In this document: piece by piece, positions 11,934 through 15,904 of the stretch
Position numbering within the stretch: the stretch's first letter is position 1
Layout of the letters: each line of letters opens with the position of its first letter
Source of the DNA: Alphaproteobacteria bacterium
Lineage (GTDB): Bacteria > Pseudomonadota > Alphaproteobacteria > UBA9219 > RGZA01
Assembly (NCBI GenBank): GCA_033762625.1
Contig: JANRLI010000003.1
Location: 186,001 to 250,000, forward strand
Reading direction: 5' to 3'
Length of the DNA: 64,000 nucleotides
The notes under the pieces: model-generated
The model's database searches: none
Seen by the model: only the letters and a program-made list of their open reading frames with translations
What the model was told of the DNA's origin: nothing
Translations under genes and position numbers: made by a program

Positions 11934-12009
11934 GGGCCTGTAGTTCAGCGGTTAGAACGCACCGCTCATAACGGTGTTGTCGCAGGTTCGAATCCTGCCG
12001 GGCCCACCA
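11934..12009 (+). tRNA. tRNA with CAU anticodon, probably tRNA-Ile2 (lysidine-modified)
   Basis: A complete 76-nt cloverleaf. The acceptor GGGCCTG pairs with CGGGCCC, the anticodon stem CACCG/CGGTG encloses the loop CTCATAA (anticodon CAT), the T arm is GCAGG-TTCGAAT-CCTGC, the discriminator is A and CCA is encoded. The D loop is 8 nt, as in E. coli ileX, where elongator tRNA-Met has 9. This and the GGGCC acceptor favour the tRNA-Ile2 that reads AUA after TilS modification. An elongator Met tRNA cannot be excluded. It is not initiator-like, since C1-A72 is absent. Confidence 0.9.
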
Positions 12010-12056: not shown

Positions 12057-12454
12057 GGACAGATTCTTGGGTGCACAAACGGAATCGCGCTCATCAATTA
12101 TGGATGATAATAAAATATCGATATGCAATTTGTTCAATGATACCAGTGGTTATTTGCATGTTTTATTTTTGCGCACACGCGTGTTTTAAAAAACTTTTCC
12201 ACTCATTTTTATTTTTAGAATCCAGTTGCTGGCACTTGAAACAGAAGTCCGGAATCGGCTTTTTTCGATTCTTATCCACGGAATCATCTCGCGCATGCGA
12301 GCGAAAGTAGGGTCAAAACGCAAAAAGCGTTGCATCGAAGACACGAAATTGCGTTTCTCATCACAAAAATGCATTTTGGGAGATGCAATAGTGAAAAAAA
12401 AGATTGAACAATTTTTTATTTGTGGGAAATTGTAATCCGTAACTTAGACAACCT
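12057..12454. other. 398-bp gap with serial small hairpins, no supportable gene
   Basis: The only open frames are short, start at non-ATG codons and look random. The middle holds four close inverted repeats: AATCG/CGATT (12253-12270), CTCGC-GCAT-GCGAG (12288-12301), AACGC-AAAAA-GCGTT (12317-12331) and TGCAT/ATGCA (12370-12387). A near-DnaA-box TTATCCACG lies at about 12272. The run ends at the Shine-Dalgarno of the 24-residue peptide gene. It could be a structured leader or small RNA. Confidence 0.4.
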
Positions 12455-12465
12455 GGAGGTATACA

Positions 12466-12540
12466 ATGGCTGCTAAGAAGAAAGCTAAAAAAGCACCGGC
12501 TAAAAAGCCAGCTGCAAAGAAAAAAGCTAAGAAGAAGTAG
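12466..12540 (+). CDS. 24-residue lysine/alanine-rich basic peptide
   Basis: A complete tiny gene: GGAGG at 12455-12459, a 6-nt spacer, ATG, 24 codons, TAG, then a strong terminator. The product starts MAAKKKAKKAPAKKPA and is composed only of Met, Ala, Lys and Pro. Its composition is like the C-terminal tails of histone H1 and of bacterial HC1/AlgP-type DNA-binding proteins. DNA or RNA binding is inferred from charge. The expression signals are unusually complete for so short a frame, which is the main reason to believe it. The opposite-strand frame is a low-complexity shadow. Confidence 0.7.
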   Translation: MAAKKKAKKAPAKKPAAKKKAKKK

Positions 12541-12572
12541 TTCGCGATAAGCAATTGCTTACTTTTAAATTT

Positions 12573-12605
12573 AATACCCCGCCAGAAATGGCGGGGTATT
12601 TTATT
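12573..12605 (+). terminator. Rho-independent terminator after the Lys/Ala peptide gene
   Basis: AATACCCCGCC (12573-) pairs with GGCGGGGTATT around AGAAAT, an 11-bp stem running into TTATTTT. It lies 32 nt after the peptide stop. Confidence 0.88.
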
Positions 12606-13588: not shown

Positions 13589-15904
13589 CTAGCGGTCATC
13601 CAGGAAGCTACGCAATTTACGGCTGCGGGAAGGGTGTTTCAGCTTACGCAGGGCTTTTGCCTCAATTTGGCGAATACGTTCACGGGTAACACTGAATTGG
13701 GTACCCACCTCTTCAAGGGTATGGTCTGTATTCATCCCGATTCCAAAGCGCATACGCAGAACGCGTTCCTCACGGGGGGTTAGGGTGGAGAGTACCCGGG
13801 TGGTCGTTTCGCGTAAGTTACCAAGAATCGCGTTATCGAGGGGCTGAATGGCGTTTTTGTCCTCGATGAAGTCGCCGAGATGCGAATCCTCCTCGTCACC
13901 AATTGGGGTTTCAAGGCTAATCGGCTCTTTAGCGATTTTGAGAACCTTGCGTACTTTTTCCAGTGGCATCATCAATTTCTCGGCCAATTCTTCCGGGGTT
14001 GGCTCGCGGCCAATCTCGTGCAGCATCTGGCGGCTTGTGCGAACCAGCTTGTTGATGGTTTCGATCATGTGCACCGGAATACGGATGGTGCGTGCTTGGT
14101 CGGCGATTGAGCGGGTGATTGCTTGTCGGATCCACCATGTTGCATAGGTGGAGAATTTATAACCACGGCGATATTCAAACTTATCAACCGCTTTCATCAG
14201 GCCGATGTTGCCTTCCTGAATAAGGTCAAGGAATTGCAAGCCACGATTGGTATATTTCTTGGCAATCGAAATAACCAAACGCAAATTGGCTTCGACCATT
14301 TCTTTCTTGGCTCTCGCGCTTTCCTTTTCGCCACGCTGTACGGTGGCAACAATGCGGCGGAAGTCGGGAAGGGGAAGGCCTGCTTCGTTGCAAATTGCGG
14401 TGATTTCCGCGCGCATACGGTCAACTTCTTCGTTGTGTCGTTCAATAAAGCGCGTCCACCCTTTAATGACTGAGGCAGATGGGCCTTCTTTGCCTGTTTT
14501 GGCATTGGGGCCAATAACAGCGCCGAGCCAAGCTGGATTAAGTTCATGCCCATAATAACGGGCAAGGAACTCATCACGGTTCACGCCGCAATCGGTTGCC
14601 ATGCGGAGCAAGCGGCCTTCCAAACCAATCAAACGGCGGTTGAGGGTGTAGAGTTGCTGAACAAGTTGTTCCAAACGGTGGTTGTTGAAACGAATGGTGC
14701 GCACCAAATCCACCAGTTCGACTTTCAATTCTTCAAACTTACGGTCGGATTGTTTGGAAAGCGCTTCACCCTTCATGAAGGCTTGATGGCGTTGGGCCAC
14801 CAGTTTGAACAGCTTGGCATAGGTCACGGCAATACGTGCAAACGTATCCATAACGCCGGGTTTCAGCTTTTCTTCCAGCATTGATAGGGAAAGGCTGTTT
14901 TCCTCATCATCGAATTCGCTGGTCATATCTTCGCCAACGCCTTCGCCGCCTTCTTCGCCTTCTTTCTTGGGCTCGTCTTCTTTTTCGTCTTGGGTCAGCG
15001 CAAGGCTGCCTTCACCGCCCGATGGCGCAAGGGCAGGGAGCTCTGGTGCACCAGTTTCATCGGCATGGGTTGCTTCCAGATCGATAATTTCACGCAGCAG
15101 CATCTTTCCTTCAGAGAGTGCTTCATGCCATGCCAAAATCGCCTGAATGGTAAGCGGGGATTCACAAATCCCGCTGATCATCATTTCACGGCCAGCTTCA
15201 ATCCGTTTGGCAAGCGCGATTTCGCCTTCGCGCGACAGCAATTCGACCGAACCCATTTCGCGCAAATACATGCGCACGGGGTCATCGGTACGGCTTACGG
15301 ATTCTTCGTTGATGTTACCTGAAGCCTGTTCATCATCATCCTTCGCTTCCTTTTCATCGGCGGCATTATCGTCGGCTTCTTCCTCTTCGCTTTCGATGAC
15401 GTTGATGCCCGCTTCCGAGAATAGCGCAAGAGTATCTTCAATCTGTTCCGATGAAACCTGATCGGGTGGCAATACCTTGTTAATTTCATCAATGGTTACG
15501 TAACCACGTGTTTTACCTTTACGGATAAGCTTTTTCAGCGCGTCAACCGATGCGTCATCCAATACCGGCGCTGCGTCGGTTGTGGCTTCCGCAGGCTTGC
15601 CCTTTGACATATCCACGCGTTTAAAATTCTTAGGCAGAACTTTTTCCGGCAGCTTCTTCTTGTCTGCTTCTTTGCCTTTTGGCAGTGGGCCCTTTGCAAC
15701 CAGTTTCAGGTCCGGTTTCTTGCCTGAGCCACCTTTGAGCGGCAGCGCTTTTTGCGCAACGATCTTTACAACTTTTTTCTTATCGTCTTTTTTTGCGCTG
15801 GTTTTTTGCGCGGGTTTTCCGGCGGCTTTTTTAGCGGCGATTTTTGCGGTAACTTTGGCGGCGGGCTTGGCGGAAGATTTCTTTGCAGGTTTTTTAGCAG
15901 GCAT
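13589..15904 (-). CDS. rpoD: RNA polymerase primary sigma factor RpoD (sigma-70)
   Basis: The housekeeping sigma factor. Of 771 residues, the first 95 or so are a Lys/Ala-rich tail ([17 protein letters not shown]...). Region 1.1 ([22 protein letters not shown]) and an acidic linker follow, then region 1.2 ([11 protein letters not shown]). Region 2 contains [19 protein letters not shown] and [10 protein letters not shown], and region 4 has [15 protein letters not shown] and [17 protein letters not shown]. It is longer than the usual alphaproteobacterial RpoD (about 620-690) mostly because of the basic tail. AGGA precedes the ATG. It lies downstream of dnaG, and the arsR promoter begins at its 3' end. 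Confidence 0.97.

Follow-up and report, generated by a model that had tools for sequence, protein, structure and literature searches.

A short stand-alone gene in the 64,000-nt stretch of alphaproteobacterial DNA analysed here (the window) encodes a 24-residue peptide that resembles the tail of histone H1. We consider it probable, from the sequences compared below, that the gene is single-copy, monocistronic and core to an alphaproteobacterial order, and that its product would be a disordered polycation that binds polyanions.

A complete gene for a lysine/alanine/proline peptide

The gene and its surroundings comprise the following features.

11934..12009, + strand: tRNA with CAT anticodon (tRNA-Met by ARAGORN), the upstream neighbour, outside the gene and used as a place marker in the order
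12329..12353, + strand: upstream element GTTGCATCGAAGACACGAAATTGCG, in the form common to the five genomes of the window's family
12404..12433, + strand: presumed promoter TTGAAC-N18-AATTGT, aligned to TTGAC-N18-CAACAT of other members and weak in the genus
12455..12459, + strand: Shine-Dalgarno sequence (SD) GGAGG, kept in the genus; other members have GGAGG or AGGAG
12466..12540, + strand: coding sequence of the 24-residue Lys/Ala/Pro peptide with its stop codon (translation, genus alignment, order members)
12573..12600, + strand: intrinsic terminator of 12 stem pairs followed by a T-rich tail; in L002 the stem has a compensatory change (genus alignment)

The 24 codons of the peptide, MAAKKKAKKAPAKKPAAKKKAKKK, run from the ATG at 12466-12468 to the TAG at 12538-12540 and specify 13 K, 8 A, 2 P and 1 M, giving a side-chain charge of +13. 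An earlier note on this DNA had read a GGAGG, an ATG, 24 Met/Ala/Lys/Pro codons and a stop here, and all of these were confirmed at 12455-12540. The terminator that it had put at 11 bp is present, but the stem (12573-12600) has 12 pairs, 7 of them G-C, with a loop of 4 and a T-rich tail after it. The parts also stand in the order that it described, although its phrase 'no waste' is slightly overstated, since a spacer of 32 nt separates the stop codon from the terminator stem. In the stretch searched against Rfam, only the tRNA reached the gathering score; its sequence resembles the isoleucine-2 type.

The combined share of K, A and P was 0.96 in the peptide and at most 0.58 in every other one of the window's 1057 ORFs of 15-60 aa. 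When the window was simulated 60 times with a first-order Markov model, none of the resulting 69670 ORFs of 20-60 aa had a share of 0.9 or more. The succession of an SD, an ATG, 24 codons for Met, Ala, Lys and Pro, a stop and a strong terminator is far beyond chance.

Upstream, 12062-12285 holds the window's densest GANTC cluster, where a single 300-nt stretch has 6 of the 57 sites, and the DnaA-box-like TTATCCACG at 12272. The cluster is partly conserved in the two sister species, and the GC skew has no clear turn there of the kind that would accompany a replication origin.

Conservation and coding signal

A peptide search found a single copy of the gene in each of the three species of the genus, the window's among them. 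The earlier note had called the gene complete and had named its conservation in relatives as the check; frame, SD and terminator are indeed kept there, as is much of a leader of ~200 nt in the alignment of the three species. The DNA 3' of the terminator is unlike in the window and in L002, and the unit is thus self-contained.

The genus peptides have 24, 26 and 23 residues, and the indels between them are whole codons. Differences at codon positions 1/2/3 numbered 0/1/8 between L001 and L002 (nine bases), 0/0/1 between L001 and L003, and 0/0/5 between L003 and L002. Summed over nine close pairs from several lineages, they came to 1/4/30 (p 2e-10 when the differences are treated as independent). 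These pairs were hand-chosen as close (L033-L119, L044-L082, L096-L114, L062-L117, L048-L136, L020-L118, L045-L129, L041-L126 and L001-L002); other pairs of equal length, such as L020-L032 (5/5/11), L041-L103 (2/2/4) and L103-L126 (2/3/6), were left unsummed because their alignment was ambiguous or their lineage was already counted. This sequence comparison shows that the window frame is a real protein-coding gene, conserved and dedicated.

The codon usage is at most a mild sign of good expression. The Ala codon GCT makes up 6 of 8 in the peptide gene versus 14% in the long ORFs of the window, a weak bias; in the EF-Tu gene of the same genome, GCT accounts for 12 of 35 Ala codons and AAG for 23 of 27 Lys codons, with AAG at 7 of 13 in the peptide gene.

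Distribution in the order

The order searches detected the gene in 26 of the 33 order genomes, among them 20 of the 21 good ones (completeness at least 90%, contamination at most 5%), and no copy in the remaining good genome, G020. The homology search with the peptide reached a sister species at E 0.05 and had no match in the sister genus. Since the peptide works poorly as a probe, we searched for the neighbouring CAT tRNA instead, which had a match in 30 of 32 order genomes. We scanned up to 1.5 kb on either side of these 30 loci for SD-preceded frames that were 12-45 aa long and had a Lys share of 35% or more. A Lys/Ala peptide lay within this distance at 15 loci; these come from each of the three families and include the two genomes of the sister genus.

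Promoter, palindrome and terminator

The DNA upstream of the tRNA-linked genes has a common promoter, TTGAC-N18-CAACAT, and a palindrome, TGTTGC-N5-TGCAACG. A pattern of promoter, SD and ATG that was blind to the protein had one site each in 16 of 32 order genomes, and all 16 sites led to a Lys/Ala peptide; the reversed promoter pattern had zero sites in the same 32 genomes. The exact palindrome occurred at 20 sites in 18 of the 32 genomes, compared with 3 sites for its reversed control, and 17 of the 20 led to the gene (the exceptions being L296, L307 and L308). The palindrome is therefore nearly private to the gene, which suggests that the peptide is made under a specific condition. It stands ~135-150 nt before the ATG (L289-L306). 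The distance from its start to TTGAC is 75-76 nt in 14 of the 15 cases with both elements; in the remaining case it is 66 nt, about one helical turn shorter, as would be expected of a protein bound to one face of the DNA.

The shared promoter is missing in 7 of the 26 members, including all three of the window's genus. A general consensus scan had no promoter match on the gene's strand, and the promoter at 12404..12433 is presumed from its position. In place of the exact palindrome, the window and four other genomes of its family have the related element GTTGCATCGAAGACACGAAATTGCG, which by its position is probably the counterpart of the palindrome in other families.

Downstream, the loci of the order have the stop codon, then a small hairpin, then the terminator. 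The terminator folding, computed for 20 of the 26 order sequences, had double changes in 9 of 19 pairs; G015 and the five sequences from the window's family, whose terminators seemed to be of another form, had been set aside before the folding.

Properties of the peptides

The 26 peptides of the order have 17-45 aa and consist of 49% K and 27% A, followed by P, T and V, with net charges of 10 to 28; none of the 26 contains D or E, and aromatic residues are absent. The lysines form blocks, KK or KKK, spaced by 1-3 small residues (Ala/Thr/Val/Pro), and K-K distances of 1, 4 and 5 are enriched and those of 2 and 3 depleted relative to shuffles. The peptides of related genomes are restricted to K/A/P/T/V/R, while their residue order and length vary, and this comparison indicates that selection holds the encoded composition more than the exact order or length. 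Such variation under a constant composition and rhythm would be expected of a disordered polycation, neither folded nor membrane-active.

With the window peptide as query, Pfam, NCBIfam and PHROGs returned 0 families at E 10, in profile searches that are insensitive to a peptide of such low complexity. The product is 24 aa in all and has neither an Hc1-type dimerisation domain nor an H1 globular domain (Pfam, E 10). The earlier note had likened it to an H1 tail freed of its globular domain, and the composition and the lysine rhythm fit this description, but homology to H1 is not claimable.

A tail much like the free peptide is found 1 kb away, where an RpoD-like sigma factor (13589-15904, − strand) starts with ~40 residues rich in Lys, Ala, Pro and Ser.

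Comparison with known basic tails

The C-terminal tail of eukaryotic histone H1 has a similar Lys/Ala/Pro composition, but it is far longer and attached to a globular domain, and so simple a sequence permits no claim of homology. Protamines and polyamines are likewise short, highly charged condensers of nucleic acids that act without sequence specificity; protamines are Arg-rich and eukaryotic, and polyamines are not gene-encoded peptides.

Among bacterial proteins, Hc2 (HctB) of Chlamydia is, according to excerpts of PMC2848022, a protein of 165-237 aa whose size differs by strain, with a repeat region of 72-144 aa and conserved flanks. In each of its pentamers two residues are basic and the other three are mostly Ala, but also Val, Thr and Pro; the protein binds DNA and RNA and represses translation (same excerpts). 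As far as these descriptions go, the peptides share with Hc2 and with BpH1 of Bordetella an acid-free tail in which basic pairs are parted by Ala, Val, Thr or Pro with a period of about five, as well as a variable size; unlike them, the peptides have 17-45 aa in 26 of 26 cases, use Lys only (with rare Arg) and consist of the tail alone. Hc1 (HctA) is also Lys-rich in its DNA-binding C-terminus, but the conserved N-terminal dimerisation domain ascribed to it in the same excerpts is missing here.

AlgP and PhaF of Pseudomonas have disordered Lys/Ala/Pro tails that resemble the H1 C-terminus; peptides derived from the AlgP tail bind DNA, and AlgP, through whose tail runs the KPAA motif, locates to polyphosphate granules and spaces them (excerpts of PMC9239181). 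The likeness to the peptides, within what these excerpts describe, lies in the disordered Lys/Ala/Pro tail, whereas the tails of AlgP (154 aa) and PhaF follow an N-terminal helical domain and are built of KPAA repeats; the peptide here has no such domain, and its lysines stand in doublets or triplets. Because length and domain content differ, we do not assign the peptide to Hc2/BpH1 or to AlgP/PhaF, though we liken it to them in action.

Similar frames outside the order

When named genomes of bacteria and archaea were scanned with a sequence pattern, at least 71 short frames of this type came up, spread over 14 phylum labels. They were selected from at least 118 pattern matches for a length of 11-35 aa and a share of K/A/P/R/T/V/G/S of 90% or more; since the pattern fixes the start and end letters and the matches listed are a lower bound, the numbers speak for breadth, not frequency. 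One locus, L044, is titled Candidatus Planktophila, and its leader and the gene order around the peptide gene are gammaproteobacterial, so that its phylum label is doubtful and the contig probably mis-binned.

Among the matches listed, a terminator-like site lay within 110 nt of 36 of 68 short frames (3 of the 71 being too close to a sequence end); the corresponding counts at the same loci were 56 of 795 for long ORFs and 30 of 568 for random places. By a crude gene caller, these listed frames are solitary, with hardly any same-strand gene close by. Leader and neighbours are conserved inside lineages, and across lineages no neighbour is common save for stray clustering links. By our reading of the protein sequences, Alphaproteobacteria presumably have gatB or a ribonucleotide reductase gene as neighbour, Gammaproteobacteria an EVE-domain gene and rpiA, Betaproteobacteria lysA, and Acidobacteria a CAAX-type protease and rsmE. 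Genomes of the window's class have the gatB neighbourhood in common with named Alphaproteobacteria, from which the window's place in that class can be deduced. The likeness across lineages may reflect a common ancestor or independent arrival, the sequence being too simple to separate the two.

Within the class, a strict sequence pattern matched in 5 of 289 genomes, a prevalence to be read as a low bound because the same pattern recovers 6 of the 26 known order members. A looser class pattern had a match in 70 of 376 genomes; on visual inspection, most of these matches lacked a Lys/Ala frame. Among 30 loci analysed further, for which frames were shown only if they had more than 20% K or fewer than 60 aa, three genomes of one family have peptides of 31-36 aa. 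The looser pattern also led to all-tail proteins of 76-144 aa in three genomes from other families of the class (L345, L346 and L349), nearly all K/A/T/R/P/V and a longer form of the theme. The forms of 31-36 and 76-144 aa point to a size continuum, with a blurred border to the peptide class. The gammaproteobacterial leader pattern matched in 0 of 398 genomes of the phylum; either its range is narrow or the pattern is too tight.

Viral contigs of IMG/VR also contain SD-preceded Lys-rich micropeptides (K/A or K/N), for example L144, L160, L187, L188, L202 and L229, and 15 of 120 IMG/VR pattern matches passed a strict K/A filter. Cultured pelagiphages related to L160 have no such micropeptide in the matching stretch, and searches of phage and plasmid records gave no match, or the flanking genes alone.

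Proposed action and alternative readings

We propose that the gene makes a free, presumably disordered, H1-tail-like peptide of 17-45 residues, which, to judge from its composition, would bind polyanions by charge. Its target would most likely be nucleoid DNA, otherwise RNA or polyphosphate, and it would act as a gene-encoded polyamine, by analogy with the tails of Hc2, BpH1 and AlgP. The earlier note had suggested that the peptide may bind the nucleoid or RNA, which is a reasonable proposal. Our ranking of the targets, with nucleoid DNA first, RNA or the ribosome second and polyphosphate third, is a provisional one, the present evidence being alike for all three.

A free basic tail that aids RNA folding or assembly, or that damps translation, is the strongest alternative, although we hold it unlikely. 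The same polycation logic applies, with the basic tails of ribosomal proteins as a likeness; Hc2 provides a precedent in its binding of RNA and repression of translation (PMC2848022, excerpts), and the gene lies beside a tRNA at 15 of 30 order loci. However, different lineages have no neighbour in common, and the evidence is equally compatible with DNA. That the target is polyphosphate or some other storage granule, in the manner of AlgP and PhaF, is rather improbable: AlgP with its KPAA tail does sit on polyphosphate granules and space them (PMC9239181, excerpts), but the likeness to AlgP is limited to the tail part, and the recurrent neighbours inspected include no granule genes.

The remaining readings depart from a polyanion-binding peptide altogether. 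A small regulatory RNA, with the frame incidental or secondary, would account for the short predicted transcript, the conserved leader, the structured terminator and the small hairpin before it, and yet the changes fall on third codon positions, the indels are whole codons and the related peptides keep to K/A/P/T/V/R while order and length change, which makes this very improbable. We give even less credence to a membrane-active or antimicrobial peptide: the product is short and strongly cationic, but no signal sequence is visible and there is no hydrophobic face, the helical hydrophobic moment being no larger than in shuffles (mean z of -0.19 in the 26 peptides of the order and of -0.55 in the other 71 frames, among the matches listed). 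A leader peptide for attenuation of a downstream gene, suggested by a short frame with one abundant amino acid and a terminator after it, can practically be dismissed, since the next genes beyond the window terminator are on the opposite strand and, by a crude gene caller and among the matches listed, 1 of 71 loci has a gene on the same strand in the 40 nt downstream (upstream, 3 of 69).

Possible meaning of a free histone-like tail

The polyanion-binding micropeptide that we prefer appears to be new in one respect, provisionally: a histone-tail-like protein reduced to a free micropeptide. Open-licence papers in PubMed Central, in the parts that they expose to search, contain no account of Lys/Ala micropeptides of 17-45 aa, and 'unreported' is meant provisionally, for these open-licence papers. 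As a wider proposal, to which we give somewhat less than even weight, many phyla, and some viral contigs too, may encode histone-tail-only micropeptides of ~17-45 residues as dedicated condensers of the nucleoid or of RNA. These would be the smallest nucleoid-associated proteins and in effect polyamines encoded by genes; in at least one order they would belong to the core and have an operator of their own.

Their shortness and simplicity would explain why tail-only micropeptides have escaped notice. Gene callers usually skip very short frames, homology searches mask low complexity or score it too low, and the product would not survive trypsin. Provided that the peptides are made, bacteria have a widespread class of micropeptides for binding chromatin or RNA that has gone unnoticed, and the gene would show the minimum of a histone-like protein that selection keeps.
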